64,000 nucleotides of DNA from NCBI RefSeq assembly GCF_003751085.1, contig NZ_RJJY01000002.1, positions 682,001 through 746,000 of the forward strand, given 5' to 3'. This DNA is from Micromonospora sp. Llam0. GTDB lineage: Bacteria; Actinomycetota; Actinomycetes; Mycobacteriales; Micromonosporaceae. The notes under the pieces are model-generated. The model ran no database searches, was not told the DNA's origin, and worked only from the letters and a program-made list of their open reading frames with translations. Positions 22,401 through 47,783 of this stretch are shown in pieces. Position numbers and translations under genes: made by a program. The stretch's first letter is position 1. Each line of letters opens with the position of its first letter.

Positions 22401-22901
22401 TCAGGTGGCGTCGGCGTCCAACGTCCTGGCCGGGACGGCGGCTGGATTGGTCCCGGCGGCCGGGCTGGTCCCGGCGGCCAGGCCGGTATCGGCGGCCGGG
22501 CTGGTCGTGGCAGCCGACCTGCTGGCACCACCGGTCACCGTCGTCGGCTTCGCGGCGGACTTCAGATCGGCCGCTTCGGCGACCTCACGCAGCTCGTCGC
22601 GGACCCCGCTGACGTCGGAACGCAGGTCGTCGTAGACGCCCTGCAACGGCTTGCGCAGCGCGGCCTCGTCCTCCTCGCTGAGCAGGTGCTTGCGGATGAA
22701 CGCCTTGGGGTGCAGGTCCTCGAGCTGGATGTCGGTGCCCAGTTCACGGCCGAGGTCCGAGGTGGCGTTACGGGCCATGTTGCGCAGATTGCGCAGCATC
22801 CGCAGGCCGTCGGAGATGACCTGCGGCAACCGGTCACCGAAGATCAACAAAGCGAGCAGCAGGAGCAGACCGATCTCCCACCAGTTCAGGTTGTCGAACA
22901 T
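22401..22901 (-). CDS. tatB: Sec-independent translocase subunit TatB
   Basis: A 166-residue protein with one short N-terminal transmembrane helix ('WWEIGLLLLLALLIFGDRLP'), a Pro/Gly hinge and an amphipathic helix ('VISDGLRMLRNLRNMARNA'), then a long Ala/Thr-rich tail containing repeated 'AAGTSPAAGT' units. This is the TatA/B layout; the length and genomic position beside htrA identify TatB, as for Rv1224. It recruits twin-arginine precursors together with TatC, which is not in this window. Confidence 0.88.
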   Translation of the reverse strand: MFDNLNWWEIGLLLLLALLIFGDRLPQVISDGLRMLRNLRNMARNATSDLGRELGTDIQLEDLHPKAFIRKHLLSEEDEAALRKPLQGVYDDLRSDVSGVRDELREVAEAADLKSAAKPTTVTGGASRSAATTSPAADTGLAAGTSPAAGTNPAAVPARTLDADAT

Positions 22902-22978: not shown

Positions 22979-24406
22979 TTACTTGGCGTCGGCGGCCAAG
23001 GTCACCGAGGCCGACCGGGCCTCGCTGCCCCGGCGGTAGTCGACCGTCACGACCGACCCGGGGGCGTACTTGCGCACCAGCGCGATCAGGTCGGTCGCCT
23101 GGTCCAGGGGCCGACCGTCGATCCGCAGCACCACGTCGCCGGCCTGCAGGCCGGCGGCGTCCGCCGGCCCGCCGTCGACCACCTCACTGAGCCGGACACC
23201 GGCACCGGGGGTACGGGCGGCGTCGGTCACCTGAGCACCGAAGATCGTCCGCCGGGCCGTGCCAGTGTCGATGATCTCCTGGGTGATCCGCTTCGCGTGG
23301 TTGATCGGGATGGCGAAGGCGAGACCGATGTTGCCGGCCGTCTCCTCGTCGGCGGCCAGCGACTTGATCACCGAGTTGACACCGATCACCCGGCCGGCGG
23401 CGTCCACCAGCGGGCCGCCCGAGTTGCCCTGGTTCACCGCCGCGTCGGTCTGGATCGCCGCGTAGTAGCGCACCTGGCCGCCGGGCTCCCCAGCCTGGAT
23501 GGTGCGGTCGAGGGCGCTGACGATCCCCGAGGTGACCGTGTTGGTCAGCGCGAGCGGCGAGCCGAAGGCGAGCACCGGATCGCCGACCGCGATCGCCTCG
23601 GAGTCGCCGAACTCGACCGGCGTCAGCCCGGTCCGGTCGACCTTGATCACCGCCACATCCGATTCCGGCTCCTGGCCGACGATCGAGGCCCGCGCGGTCG
23701 AGCCGTCGTTGAACAGCACCATCGCCTCCTCGGCCCCCACCCCGACCACGTGGTCGTTGGTGATCACGTAGCCGTCGGCGGTGGCGACGAAGCCGGAGCC
23801 GACGCTCTGCCCGCCCGGCCCGCTCACCTGCACGGTCACCACGCTCGGCAGGACCCGTTGGGCCACCCCGGCCAGCGAGTCGGCCGGCCGCTGCGCCGCC
23901 CCGGGCGGATCGGCCGGCGAGCCGCCGAGCACCGTCCCGGCACCGGCGACACCACCCCGGACCGCGAAGGCGAACCCGAGGGCACCGCCGAGGCTTCCGG
24001 CGAGCAGCGCGGCGATCACCGACACGACCACGTACGGCGTGAACCCACGGCGTACCGCCGGCTCCGGTTCGACGACCGGTTCCGGACCCTCGCCGGTGCC
24101 GGCAGCACCCGGCGGGACGTCGACCACCACCGCAGCCGGCGCGTACGGATCACGCCAGGGATCCCGCAACGCGTCCGACCACCACGGCGACGGCTGCGCC
24201 GACGGGCCGTACGACGGCGAACCGGCCGCCGGTCGGTGCACCGGTACCGATGCGCCGTACGACGGCGGGTAGGGCGGCGGACCGGCCACCGGCGGGTACG
24301 GCGGAGTCGGTGCGGGACCGTACGGCCCAGCCCACCCGCCGACCGGCGGCTGGTGCCCCGGCGGTGCGATCCCGTCGGCCTGGCGCCAGTTTCCGCCGTC
24401 GGTCAC
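22979..24406 (-). CDS. htrA: HtrA/DegP-like S1C serine protease with PDZ domain
   Basis: A membrane-anchored protease of about 475 residues. The cytoplasmic N-terminus is Pro/Tyr-rich; one transmembrane helix ('VVVSVIAALLAGSLGGALGF') precedes a trypsin-like domain with His in 'ITNDHVVGV', Asp in 'ESDVAVIKV' and Ser in 'GNSGGPL', then a C-terminal PDZ domain ('AGLQAGDVVLRIDGRPL'). Degrades or refolds damaged extracytoplasmic proteins. Start GTG at 24406 follows GGGAGG with ideal spacing; longer readings to 24424 or 24499 are possible. In relatives it is downstream of sigE-rseA; here IS elements lie 160 bases upstream, so its usual promoter may be lost. Confidence 0.92.
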   Translation of the reverse strand: MTDGGNWRQADGIAPPGHQPPVGGWAGPYGPAPTPPYPPVAGPPPYPPSYGASVPVHRPAAGSPSYGPSAQPSPWWSDALRDPWRDPYAPAAVVVDVPPGAAGTGEGPEPVVEPEPAVRRGFTPYVVVSVIAALLAGSLGGALGFAFAVRGGVAGAGTVLGGSPADPPGAAQRPADSLAGVAQRVLPSVVTVQVSGPGGQSVGSGFVATADGYVITNDHVVGVGAEEAMVLFNDGSTARASIVGQEPESDVAVIKVDRTGLTPVEFGDSEAIAVGDPVLAFGSPLALTNTVTSGIVSALDRTIQAGEPGGQVRYYAAIQTDAAVNQGNSGGPLVDAAGRVIGVNSVIKSLAADEETAGNIGLAFAIPINHAKRITQEIIDTGTARRTIFGAQVTDAARTPGAGVRLSEVVDGGPADAAGLQAGDVVLRIDGRPLDQATDLIALVRKYAPGSVVTVDYRRGSEARSASVTLAADAK

Positions 24407-24499
24407 GGTTGCCTCCCAGTCCATCCCCCAGCGCGACGGCACCGGTCCGATCGGTGACATCGCTCCGCGTCCAGGATTGCACGGATAATCGAAGAACAT

Positions 24500-24560
24500 T
24501 CAGTGGTCGCCGAACAGCGGTGTGCCCCGGTGCCCGCCCAGCCGGTCGACCAGCGGCGCT
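24500..24560 (-). pseudogene. possible 3' remnant of an anti-sigma (rseA-like) gene
   Basis: The minus strand between the IS border and htrA reads as an open frame of 19 codons, A-P-L-V-D-R-L-G-G-H-R-G-T-P-L-F-G-D-H then TGA, with 18 of 19 third positions G or C. Its place directly upstream of htrA is where the anti-sigma gene ends in relatives. The alternative frames are also GC-rich at third positions, so this is a suggestion, not a proof. Confidence 0.3.
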
Positions 24561-24564
24561 CTAG
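24561..24564. repeat. CTAG target-site duplication, left copy
   Basis: One of three CTAG tetranucleotides flanking the IS pair (24561, 26234, 27270). CTAG fits the YTAR target preference known for IS701- and IS5-type elements. Confidence 0.55.
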
Positions 24565-26233
24565 CTTGATTTTTAACCCGTCGGTGGCGGGCGCCGGTTG
24601 CTCCTGTGAGGATTCCGGCGTGTCGGGCTGACGTGGGAACGGCCACCGTTGATGATCTTCGGGTTCCCTGGCAAGGACGCGAGATCAAGGCGGTGGCCGT
24701 GGCCACGATTTTGGACCATCTGAGTGGGCTGGTGTTACCCGGCTCTGTCTCGACCGGGCCGGTGAGGGATCCGGCGGAGGTGTTGGCCGGGTTTCGGCGG
24801 GACTTCCACCAGGCCCTGTCACGGCGGTCGGATGCGTTGTTCGAGTTGACCGACGCGGTGTTGTGCGCGGATGGGCCGGTGCGGTCGTTGCCCGGGTTGT
24901 CGCTGGTAGCGGAGTACCGCCGTGGGCACGGCGCGTTGTACGACGCCTTGGCCGCCGGGCGGGTTGACGTGCAACGGCTGCGTACGGCGGTGGCGGCGGT
25001 GCCGCCGCCGCGGGCGGCTGACGGGCGGCTCGTCCTGGCCGTGGATGTGACGTGCTGGCTGCGGCCGGAGGCGCACACGTCGCCGGAGCGGATCCTGTGT
25101 CACACCTACGGCCGTGGCAGGGACCAGCACATCGGAGTTCCGGGCTGGCCGTATGCGTTCGTTGTGGCGTTGGAGACCGGCCGCACCTCGTGGACCGCAC
25201 CGCTGGACGCGGTCCGCTTGGCTCCGGGTGCGGATCTGGCGGCGGTGACCGCCGCCCAGTTGCGGGACGTGGTCGGCCGGTTGATCGCCGCCGGCCATTG
25301 GCGGCCCGGCGATCCGCAGGTCTGGGTGGTGATGGACGCAGGCTACGACGCGGCCCGCCTGGCCTGGCTGCTGCGGGACCTGCCGGTGCGCGTCCTGGCC
25401 AGGCTGCGCTCGGACAGGGTCCTGCGCCGACCCGCGCCACCACCGCTGCCCGGCCGGCGGGGCCGGCTGCCCCGCCACGGCGCCGAGTTCATCTTCGGCG
25501 ACCCCCGCAGTTGGGGTGCCCCGGATGTGACCACGGTGACCGATACCCGCCTCTACGGCACCGTCACCGCCCGAGCCTGGCACCGCTTGCATCCGAGACT
25601 GACCCGCCGCGCGGCCTGGACCGACTGCCCTGCACTGCCGATCCTGGAAGGCACCGTGATCCGTCTCGACGTCGGGCGGCTGCCGTCGGGCGCGACCGCG
25701 AAACCGGTATGGTTGTGGTGGTCCACCGGTATCGACCACGAGCCGGGCCACGATCCCAGCCCGGATCCGGCGATGATCGACCTGTTGTGGCAGGCGTTCC
25801 TACGCCGCTTCGACATCGAGCACACGTTCCGGCTGTTCAAGCAGACCCTCGGCTGGACAGTGCCGAAACTGCGCGACCCGCACGCCGCCGACCGGTGGAC
25901 CTGGCTGATCATCGCCGCCTACACGCAGCTGAGGCTGGCCCGGCCACTGGCCGCCGACCTGCGTCACCCATGGGAACGACCAGCGCCACCCGAACGGCTC
26001 ACCCCATCCCGGGTCCGCCGCGGATTTCGGCACCTACGTCCGACAAGCACCTGCCCCGCCAGCGCGCCGAAACCCACCCGGCCAGGCCCCGGACGACCAC
26101 CCGGCACACCCAACCGTCACCCCACCCGCCGCTACGACGTCCACACCGTCACCAGCAGCCAAACCGGGAAGACGACCTCCAGAAAGAAAAAATCGGCCAA
26201 TCCCAGACCACGCCGCACAGGTTAAAGATCAAG
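24565..26233 (+). mobile_element. insertion sequence A (about 1.67 kb, single DDE transposase)
   Basis: Terminal inverted repeats CTTGATTTTTAACC (24565-24578) and GGTTAAAGATCAAG (26220-26233) match at 13 of 14 positions, and CTAG follows on both sides. The single plus-strand gene fills the element. If CTAG belongs to the ends instead of the duplication, the flanks GCT/GCT would be a 3-base duplication once element B is removed. Confidence 0.8.
24606..26225 (+). CDS. DDE transposase of insertion sequence A
   Basis: A 539-residue DDE-superfamily transposase of the type annotated as NF041680-like in actinomycetes. The probable catalytic residues are Asp in 'LVLAVDVTCWLRPEA', Asp in 'VWVVMDAGYDAARL' and Glu in 'RRFDIEHTFRLFKQTLGW'; the last also shows the Y-(2)-R/K-like 'FRLFKQ'. 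The C-terminal tail is strongly basic (TSSQTGKTTSRKKK). The frame is intact from GTG 24606 to the right inverted repeat, so it may be active. Codon use is GC-rich like its host, hence probably acquired from another actinomycete. Confidence 0.85.
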   Translation: MRIPACRADVGTATVDDLRVPWQGREIKAVAVATILDHLSGLVLPGSVSTGPVRDPAEVLAGFRRDFHQALSRRSDALFELTDAVLCADGPVRSLPGLSLVAEYRRGHGALYDALAAGRVDVQRLRTAVAAVPPPRAADGRLVLAVDVTCWLRPEAHTSPERILCHTYGRGRDQHIGVPGWPYAFVVALETGRTSWTAPLDAVRLAPGADLAAVTAAQLRDVVGRLIAAGHWRPGDPQVWVVMDAGYDAARLAWLLRDLPVRVLARLRSDRVLRRPAPPPLPGRRGRLPRHGAEFIFGDPRSWGAPDVTTVTDTRLYGTVTARAWHRLHPRLTRRAAWTDCPALPILEGTVIRLDVGRLPSGATAKPVWLWWSTGIDHEPGHDPSPDPAMIDLLWQAFLRRFDIEHTFRLFKQTLGWTVPKLRDPHAADRWTWLIIAAYTQLRLARPLAADLRHPWERPAPPERLTPSRVRRGFRHLRPTSTCPASAPKPTRPGPGRPPGTPNRHPTRRYDVHTVTSSQTGKTTSRKKKSANPRPRRTG

Positions 26234-26237
26234 CTAG

Positions 26238-27269
26238 GGCGTGTATCAAAGTCGGCCGTGGGCGGGTGACGAACTTCCGGCGTGTCGCTGCCCGGTAAAC
26301 AGCGAGGCCTCCGGTAGATGGCTTATCGACCAAGACGAACCATCAACACGGAGACCTCGTGACCAGCGTAGCGGTGACGAGGCGGCACGACCTGACGGAC
26401 GCGCAGTGGGCAGTCCTGGAGCCTCTCCTGCCCACCGCACGCCGACCGGGCCGACCGCCCGCATCAACGAAACGGCAGCTCATCGACGCGATCCGGTGGC
26501 GCACACGGGCCGGCGCCCCGTGGCGGGACATCCCCGACCACTACGGCTCCTGGGCGGCGGCGTACGCCCTGTTCCGCCGGTGGCAGCGCGACGGGACCTG
26601 GGCCAGGATCCTGACCGCGTTGCAGGCCCTGGCCGACGCGGCGGGACGGATCGTCTGGGACGTGTCCGTGGACTCCACGATCAGCCGAGCGCACCAGCAC
26701 GCCGCCGGAGCGCGTAAAAGGGGGATCTGCAGGCCGAACCACCCGGCGGTACCGGGTCGGAACCCGACGACCACGCGTTGGGGCGTTCCCGTGGCGGACG
26801 GACCACGAAACTGCACCTGGGCTGTGAACAGGGACAGAAACCGCTGTCGATCGTGCTGACCGGCGGGCAGCGTGGCGACAGCCCGCAGTTCACGACGGTC
26901 CTCGACGGTGTGCGGGTGCCCCGGGTCGGGGCCGGTCGGCCCCGGACCCGTCCGGACCGGGTGCTGGCGGACAAGGCGTACACGTCGAAGGCGAACCGTG
27001 CCTACCTGCGTCGACGGGGTGTCGCCGCGACGATCCCGTCGAAGGCCGACCAGGACGCCAACCGGCGGAAGAAGGGGTCGAAGGGCGGCAGGCCGCCGGC
27101 CTTCGACCCCGAGATCTACAAGCAGCGCCACGCGGTCGAGTGCGGGATCAACCGGCTCAAGCGCAACCGTGCCGTCGCGACCCGCTACGACAAGCTCGCG
27201 GTCCGGTACGAGGCGACCGTGCAGGTCGCGGCGATCAACGAGTGGCTGTGACCGACTTTGATACACGCC
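26238..27269 (+). mobile_element. insertion sequence B (IS5 family, about 1.03 kb)
   Basis: Perfect 18-base terminal inverted repeats, GGCGTGTATCAAAGTCGG at 26238-26255 and its complement at 27252-27269, enclose an IS5-type transposase split over two frames. CTAG flanks the element at 26234-26237 and 27270-27273, the latter duplicating the CTAG already at the edge of element A. Element B therefore entered after element A, exactly at its border. Confidence 0.88.
26359..27251 (+). CDS. IS5-family transposase, expressed by -1 frameshift
   Basis: Frame 1 (26359 onwards) gives the family N-terminus '[18 protein letters not shown]' through '[18 protein letters not shown]'; it then loses homology. 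Frame -1 continues the family from '[19 protein letters not shown]' to a C-terminal '[25 protein letters not shown]', ending 'AAINEWL' one base before the inverted repeat. The switch is at TAAAAGGGGG (26715-26724), a slippery A4-G5 run, so a full product of about 297 residues needs a -1 shift there. DDE residues are Asp in 'VDSTISRA', Asp in 'LADKAYTSK' and Glu in 'VECGINRLK'. Programmed shifting is known in this family; a simple frameshift mutation cannot be excluded. Confidence 0.8.
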
Positions 27270-27273
27270 CTAG
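27270..27273. repeat. CTAG target-site duplication, right copy
   Basis: Third copy of CTAG, bordering element B on its right; the middle copy is at 26234-26237. Removal of both elements and two copies restores one CTAG between AGCGGCGCT and GCTCGTACC. Confidence 0.6.
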
Positions 27274-27318
27274 GCTCGTACCGGCAACCGCCGCCCGACC
27301 CCCCGCTGGAGGTGCGCC

Positions 27319-27972
27319 ATCCACCCGGTCACCCGACCCCCTGCCTGGACGGCGCCCCAGGCCCTCCAGTTCGTCACCGGGTACGCCGCCGAGGACCTGG
27401 TGCTGCGTACCGCCCGTAGCCTGGCCGAGGAGGTCGGGCTGCGCCCGGTCTCGCCGGACGCCGGCGCGACGCTGCGGCTGCTCGCCGCCGCCGGCAACGC
27501 ACGCGCCGTCGTCGAGATCGGCACCGGGACCGGGGTGAGTGGCGTCTGGCTGCTGCGCGGGATGCGCCCCGACGGGGTGCTGACCACGATCGACGTGGAG
27601 AACGAGCACCAGCGGATGGCCCGGCGGATCTTCATCGAGGCCGGCTACCCGACGTCGCGGACCCGGATCATCACCGGCCGGGCGCTCGATGTGCTCCCCC
27701 GGCTGGCCGACTCGGTGTACGACATGGTCTTCGTCGACGGTGACAGCGCCGAGTTCGGCGCGATCGTCGACGCGGCGCTGCGGCTGCTGCGCCCCGGCGG
27801 CATCCTGGCGGTGCACGGGGCGCTGGCCGGTGGCCGGATCGGCGACCCGGCGGCGCGCGACCCCGACACGGTCGCCATCCGCGAACTGGTCAAGTCGATC
27901 CGGGAAGCCGAGGAATGGGTGCCGGCGCTGCTGCCGGCCGGCGACGGGCTGCTGGCGGCGGTACGGCGCTGA
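27319..27972 (+). CDS. class I O-methyltransferase (Rv1220c-like), start uncertain
   Basis: A SAM-dependent methyltransferase with motif I 'VVEIGTGTGVSGVWLLRGM', 'LTTIDVENEHQRMAR', 'DMVFVDGDSAEFG' and a C-terminal 'DGLLAAVRR', closely resembling Rv1220c. Homology-like sequence ('PPAWTAPQALQFVTGYAAED') runs upstream of the first standard in-frame start, GTG 27400. A good Shine-Dalgarno, GGAGG at 27308-27312, is 6 bases before an in-frame ATC at 27319. The gene may initiate at ATC, or be a mutated start with weak initiation at 27400 (190 residues against about 215 usual). IS element B ends 46 bases upstream of 27319. Substrate unknown. Confidence 0.75.
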   Translation: MHPVTRPPAWTAPQALQFVTGYAAEDLVLRTARSLAEEVGLRPVSPDAGATLRLLAAAGNARAVVEIGTGTGVSGVWLLRGMRPDGVLTTIDVENEHQRMARRIFIEAGYPTSRTRIITGRALDVLPRLADSVYDMVFVDGDSAEFGAIVDAALRLLRPGGILAVHGALAGGRIGDPAARDPDTVAIRELVKSIREAEEWVPALLPAGDGLLAAVRR

Positions 27973-46811: not shown

Positions 46812-47783
46812 TCAGAGGGCGTTCGCGACCTCCGTCGCCCAGTAGGTGAGGATGATCTGCGCGCCGGCCCGCCGGATCGACGTCAACGTCTCCAGGATCA
46901 CCCGGTCCCGGTCGATCCAGCCGTTCGCGGCAGCCGCCTCGACCATCGCGTACTCGCCGGAGACCTGGTAAGCGGCGACCGGGACGTGCACCCGCTGGCG
47001 GACCGCCGCGATCACGTCCAGGTACGGCAGCGCCGGCTTGACCATCACCAGGTCGGCACCTTCGGCGACGTCCAGCTCGACCTCGCGCAGCGACTCCCGC
47101 AGATTCGCCGGATCCTGCTGGTAGGTCCGCCGGTCGCCGACCAGCGCCGACTCCACCGCGTCGCGGAACGGCCCGTAGAACGCCGAGGCGTACTTCGCCG
47201 CGTACGCGAGCAGTGCGGTGTCGGTGTACCCGGCCGTGTCCAACGCCCGGCGCACCACCCCGACCTGGCCGTCCATCATCCCGGACGGACCGAGCATGTC
47301 CGCGCCGGCTTCGGCCTGCGCGACGGCCAGCTGCGCGTACGCGGCGAGCGTCGCGTCGTTGTCCACCGTCCCGTCGGCGGCGAGCAGGCCGCAGTGCCCG
47401 TGCGAGGTGAACTCGTCGAGGCAGAGGTCGCTCATCACCACGGTGGCGTCACCGACCTCGGCGACCACGTCCCGGATGGCGACGTTCAGCACGCCGGCCG
47501 GGTCGACACCGGCGGAACCGGTTTCGTCCCGGCGCTGCGGCACGCCGAACAGCATGATCCCGCCGACCCCGGCCGCCACCGCCTCGGCTGCGGCCTTGCG
47601 CAACGAGTCCCGGCTGTGCTGGACCACCCCGGGCAGCGACGGGACCGGGCGCGGCTCGGTGAGCCCTTCCTTGACGAACATCGGCAGCACCAGCTCGGCC
47701 GGGGACAGCCGGGTCTCCTCGACCAGCCGCCGCACCGCGGCGGTACGGCGCAGCCGGCGTGGCCGGCTCTGCGGATACGTCAT
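46812..47783 (-). CDS. hemB: delta-aminolevulinic acid dehydratase (porphobilinogen synthase)
   Basis: A 323-residue enzyme of haem synthesis. Active-site lysines are in '[16 protein letters not shown]' and '[14 protein letters not shown]'. The metal-site region reads [14 protein letters not shown], with two Cys and an Asp, as in other actinobacterial enzymes. It condenses two 5-aminolevulinate to porphobilinogen in the cytosol. Last gene of the rex-hemA-hemC-hemD-hemB cluster, 10 bases after hemD. Confidence 0.96.

Follow-up and report, generated by a model that had tools for sequence, protein, structure and literature searches.

In Mycobacterium tuberculosis, sigE is followed by rseA, and rseA, htrA and tatB form an operon, according to the accessible part of the source (PMC10027907). 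In Streptomyces, the O-methyltransferase gene SCO5146 is divergent from the CutR-bound extracytoplasmic function (ECF) gene SCO5147 (PMC10433416), for which a relationship to M. tuberculosis SigE is described (PMC6295645), in both cases as far as the available parts of these papers go. We analyzed a stretch of 64,000 nucleotides from Micromonospora sp. Llam0 (contig NZ_RJJY01000002.1, positions 682,001 to 746,000; hereafter the window), in which an O-methyltransferase gene (OMT) and htrA are separated by an interval that holds two insertion sequences (IS) and no sigma or anti-sigma gene. A first-pass annotation had noted the IS pair between the two genes and the absence of sigE-rseA, and both observations hold. 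This arrangement is very probably the product of two unrelated events stacked on one spot, an old loss of sigE-rseA in an ancestor of the family Micromonosporaceae (here "the family") and the much later arrival of an IS pair that removed nothing. The genome of the window is G000; other G-numbers are genomes and L-numbers are fetched loci. The two genes that flank the interval are:

22979..24406, minus strand: htrA, HtrA/DegP-type serine protease with PDZ (Pfam and NCBIfam matches; GTG start with GGGAGG before it)
27319..27972, plus strand: O-methyltransferase gene (OMT) with an apparent ATC start (Methyltransf_3 match)

The absence of SigE extends over the whole family as sampled. With the SigE of G028, a genome of the same order, as query (328.9 bits with the model NF007229, cut-off 265; E 6.7e-74 against solved SigE chains), proteins of at least 60% identity were found in 14 of the 16 genomes that belong to other families of the order and in none of 25 family genomes, where the best match reached 104.0 bits. 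By coordinates, 13 of these 14 SigE lie within 2 kb of an OMT; the remaining genome (G037) has no close OMT on that contig. RseA was matched in 13 of the 16 other-family genomes and in none of the 25 family genomes, G000 included, and an RseB-like gene in four and none, respectively. All SigE candidates were scored for G000 in this search, and up to 72 for the other genomes. At E 1e-32, SigE was detected in none of 250 family genomes, and the curated NCBI SigE model found no match in 354 Micromonosporaceae genomes from 44 genera, 335 of them of good quality, but did recognize the control, Corynebacterium glutamicum. In a sample of the order, 126 of 150 genomes match the same model (123 over the cut-off); among the 20 listed of the 24 misses, 19 are Micromonosporaceae and the other is G034. 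SigE is also present in 80 of the 118 class genomes sampled.

Gene order was compared in the fetched loci. In all 13 loci from other families, the gene detected next to OMT is SigE. In 11 of them htrA follows on the opposite side of SigE from OMT; it was not found in L063, nor in L060, which runs into a contig end. These 13 loci carry RseA in ten cases and an RseB-like gene in three. OMT loci were also fetched from 18 family genomes, and in every one of them htrA adjoins OMT, with no SigE between the two. The corrected OMT-htrA gap does not exceed 518 bp across the 97 family loci with htrA (98 loci were compared, 95 of them distinct given three identical pairs; L247 lacks htrA in its stretch). 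In one family genome (G015) OMT and htrA run in one direction, and another (G018) has a 30%-identical ECF-like match between mrp and tatB. Taken from these comparisons, SigE and RseA appear to have been lost in the Micromonosporaceae ancestor, long before the IS arrived. As a side observation, three loci of other families (L057, L058, and L063) have an RseB/MucB-like gene beside rseA on the htrA side, a three-gene sigE-rseA-rseB arrangement.

The alternative that SigE moved elsewhere in this genome, or diverged there beyond recognition, is very improbable. The genome has 44 Sigma70_r2 matches, and the best candidate among them (C2:75446) is 43% identical to SigE, but it reaches only 122.7 bits on NF007229, under the cut-off of 265, while it scores 347.2 bits as SigH_actino (cut-off 251.55). 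In a tree of 33 of the 44 matches, together with 13 SigE taken at OMT loci and 16 further sigma factors, this protein clusters with counterparts from seven other-family genomes, which have a true SigE as well. All 13 SigE fall on one branch (100/99) with none of the 33 G000 rows, and the missing RseA match in G000 likewise argues against relocation. The search for a SigE orthologue elsewhere in the genome, which the first-pass annotation had proposed, therefore found none: the 33 tree-placed sigma matches stand outside the SigE branch and the best of them is SigH_actino. Separately, two loci of this genome (L150 at C2:2665000 and L151 at C1:6226400) hold nearly identical ECF sigma genes, each about 4 kb from the end of its contig; the two loci have 200 bases exactly in common, a hint of shared contig ends.

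Less probable again is that nothing was lost, the family preserving the ancestral state and other lineages having gained sigE-rseA at this place. Absence alone cannot separate gain from loss. Because SigE is so widely spread, from the class and order samples above to the Streptomyces pair SCO5146 and SCO5147, which are divergent (PMC10433416) and of which SCO5147 is SigE-related (PMC6295645) in the available parts of the sources, we infer loss rather than gain; by an argument made without a species tree, one loss in a nested family is also cheaper than many gains at one spot.

The IS pair and its target copies occupy most of the interval between the two genes:

24561..24564, no strand: CTAG, target copy at the left flank of the first IS (copy comparison; the empty site is CTAG in G005, G001, G002, and G004)
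24565..26233, plus strand: first IS, IS701-like, 1,669 bp (ends and flanks of nine genome copies compared)
24606-26225, plus strand: NF041680 transposase of the first IS (553.6 bits, cut-off 440)
26234..26237, no strand: CTAG common to both IS (copy comparison)
26238..27269, plus strand: second IS, IS5 family, 1,032 bp (five full-length copies compared)
26359-26859 and 26778-27251, plus strand: transposase of the second IS in two overlapping frames (NF033580, 119.3 and 130.1 bits, cut-off 110)
27270..27273, no strand: CTAG, target copy at the right flank of the second IS (copy comparison)

In all six same-genus genomes compared (G001-G006), the OMT-htrA spacer measures 199-206 bp and is free of IS, and none of the six has a sigma or anti-sigma gene in it. 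The two closest sisters (G005 and G001) show the empty site CTAG in a gap of 203 bp; the other sisters have CTAG (G002 and G004) or CTAC (G003 and G006). The gap in the window, 2,912 bp, is exactly the sum of these 203 bp, the 1,669 and 1,032 bp of the two elements, and 8 bp for two 4-bp target copies. Because this sum is base-exact against the closest sisters, the insertions removed no DNA. The first-pass annotation had tied the loss of sigE-rseA to the IS pair and had itself named an IS-free sister without these genes as the finding that would contradict it; six such genomes are now at hand. It is thus exceedingly improbable that this strain lost sigE-rseA through an IS insertion and a deletion mediated by it. 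The IS do occupy the place that sigE-rseA has in other families of the order, but the six IS-free sisters lack the genes too, the insertion lengths cover every extra base with target copies kept by both IS, and SigE was found in none of the 354 family genomes. An IS at a breakpoint should not be read as the cause of a loss.

We propose that sigE and rseA vanished between OMT and htrA in the Micromonosporaceae ancestor, which would have left these two genes facing away from each other, with a short spacer between them (about 0.2 kb within the genus, by comparison). HtrA expression would then have been driven from the gene's own promoter, at a conserved element exclusive to this locus. Much later, the IS701-like and IS5-family elements would have entered the same CTAG of the spacer successively, in either order, each copying its target, and in this genome alone among those compared. 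The candidate promoter features of htrA are:

24470..24484, minus strand: conserved 15-bp core CCGTG[CT]AATCCTGGA, part of the putative htrA promoter (family and genome-wide motif searches)
24476..24503, minus strand: putative htrA promoter, CTGAAT, 16 nt, TGCAAT (suggested by genus comparison)

The core is found with at most two mismatches in 93 of 97 family loci, compared with no loci in 20 shuffling rounds and 0 of 4 control patterns. Exact copies are present in 12 of 41 genomes, a single one per genome and always in the OMT-htrA spacer; the backward control gave none. With the same tolerance, the element was not detected at htrA in the 13 outgroup loci, where the one match (L069) is off target; the window holds one further two-mismatch match to the core, at 46905. 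These observations suggest that the conserved element is part of htrA's own promoter region. As the IS pair stands 57 bp upstream of the putative -35, the core promoter of htrA would be intact. That htrA came under other control once the sigma factor was gone, as first suggested, is supported.

Two candidates in this region were rejected. The first-pass annotation had suggested that an open frame at 24500-24560 could be the 3' end of rseA. This DNA is noncoding, belongs to the upstream part of the conserved block before htrA, is intergenic in the IS-free sisters, and overlaps the putative htrA -35. A 21-amino-acid piece of it gave a best E of 8.0 against SigE/RseA-bearing loci, and all peptide matches were at E 1.8 or worse. 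Overall, what survives of that annotation is the loss of sigE-rseA and the altered control of htrA; the causal role of the IS and the rseA remnant do not. CutR was considered as a new regulator of htrA, but none of the 98 family loci has its site, given as TAWATAAA in the accessible part of the source (PMC12802291), within 450 nt upstream of OMT.

On the other side of the interval, ATC seems to be the start codon of OMT throughout the family, judging from the sequences alone. In the window, GGAGG (27308-27312) precedes the ATC at 27319 at a normal distance, and no in-frame ATG, GTG, or TTG lies between the upstream TAG and this codon. A Shine-Dalgarno rule applied to 99 sequences (98 family loci and the window; L039-L055, L070, and L204-L283, with three sequence pairs identical) selected ATC in 92, ATG in five, a weak-site ATC in one and a weak-site TTG in one. 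Several loci (L047, L053, L070, L238, and L279) have an in-frame ATG nearby that could be the start instead. Pairwise differences fall from about 0.6 per site upstream of the start codon to about 0.3 downstream, as measured on 39 distinct sequences that all have their start at exactly 27 codons upstream. Outside the family, the rule picks ATC in 4 of 13 loci of the order (two with a 7-nt match) and in six of ten class loci, with one more a tie. Conservation of such a non-standard start would be out of the ordinary; among the matches listed in a literature search on ATC/AUC start codons, none was seen that concerns this gene.

One further feature lies at the insertion edge:

27271..27276, plus strand: TAGGCT, possible -10 of OMT (suggestive only)

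TA[CG]GCT is present upstream of OMT in 61 of 96 family loci scored, three of the 99 sequences having been left out for lack of a usable start. Because the right end of the IS pair abuts TAGGCT, and so touches the possible -10, expression of OMT is more likely to be altered by the IS than that of htrA. The full proposal, in which the family discarded SigE-RseA, rewired htrA to a once-per-genome element not seen in the SigE-bearing loci compared, and perhaps starts OMT at ATC, is tentative, and we hold it with slightly less than even confidence.

Several points weigh against the account given here. The 250- and 354-genome searches scored no more than the best 8-11 first-look candidates in each genome; six of the 25 family genomes (G010, G011, G013, G017, G019, and G020) gave no close match to OMT and do not figure in the locus comparison; and 11 of the G000 sigma matches are not on the tree (nine without a phmmer match to SigE and two under 20 bits). 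Two genomes of the same order but of other families (G034 of f11 and G035 of f12; 2.4 and 3.0 Mb) have no SigE orthologue, which reflects either separate losses or incomplete assemblies; another f12 genome (G491) carries SigE. Concerning htrA, G015 lacks the element, sigma-70 consensus scans of the spacer did not flag the putative promoter, and the -35 half of this promoter is not conserved in all genera.

The limits of both IS were set by comparing copies inside G000, which has nine full-length copies of the first and five of the second. Because these copies are at least 99.8% identical, both elements probably spread recently. Eight of the nine copies of the first IS are in CTAG and one is in TTAA (L122, C1:2723843-2725516), so its true duplicated target may be only TA; all five copies of the second are in CTAG. 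Both frames of the second IS score above the IS5-family NCBIfam cut-off. The transposase of the first falls below the IS701 cut-offs (63.7 against 170, and 31.8 against 150 bits) and scores above that of NF041680 instead, and the element is therefore named IS701-like only. Three of the five second-IS copies abut a first-IS copy (window 24561-27273; C1:359537-363922; C1:5347740-5352121), each with CTAG at the junction. A composite transposon was considered and rejected, as the three sites show three different relative orientations, which fit serial insertion into a regenerated CTAG better than one mobile unit. Growth of IS islands by insertion into regenerated target copies is thus seen at three places in this genome.

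Among the surrounding genes, Pfam matches agree with the order first described for htrA (Trypsin_2 and PDZ), an mrp-type ATPase, DUF1003, and OMT. Downstream of htrA (minus strand, start at 24406, picked by eye and kept across the genus) come a tatB-like frame, then mrp and DUF1003, while OMT is on the plus strand. The tatB-like frame (22401-22901) drew no Pfam hit at 1e-3 and is named for its position and for being conserved next to htrA. Close matches to OMT with names come from Micromonospora, Actinoplanes, Phytohabitans, Catenuloplanes, and relatives, which identifies the family as Micromonosporaceae.

SigE is among the most widespread envelope-stress regulators of the class, which raises the question of what took over htrA. 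The family, including Micromonospora and Actinoplanes, kept the neighboring genes without SigE and would represent a large group of natural knock-outs. If the loss is confirmed, it would be a natural experiment on the handling of envelope stress without SigE in developmentally complex actinobacteria. No report of a family-wide loss of SigE was found in the literature within reach, which did not include subscription papers. For this SigE group, which we take to be the one named ECF14, the search found nothing on ECF14 in Micromonosporaceae, on ECF14 with HtrA in actinobacteria, or on ECF loss in Micromonosporaceae.

Like the sigE-rseA-htrA-tatB locus of M. tuberculosis, the window has a tatB-like frame after htrA and carries mrp and OMT as neighbors of htrA. 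It differs in having neither a SigE-type ECF gene beside OMT nor an RseA-type gene before htrA; htrA faces OMT directly. The insertions themselves are of an ordinary kind, sharing DDE transposases, terminal inverted repeats, and CTAG at both ends with known IS701-like and IS5-family elements, and are notable only for standing on one another's target copies. As in the S. coelicolor region around SCO5146 and SCO5147, to the extent that it is described in the available parts of the sources, OMT is divergent from its neighbor; there, the neighbor is a SigE-like ECF gene bound by CutR, whereas here it is htrA.

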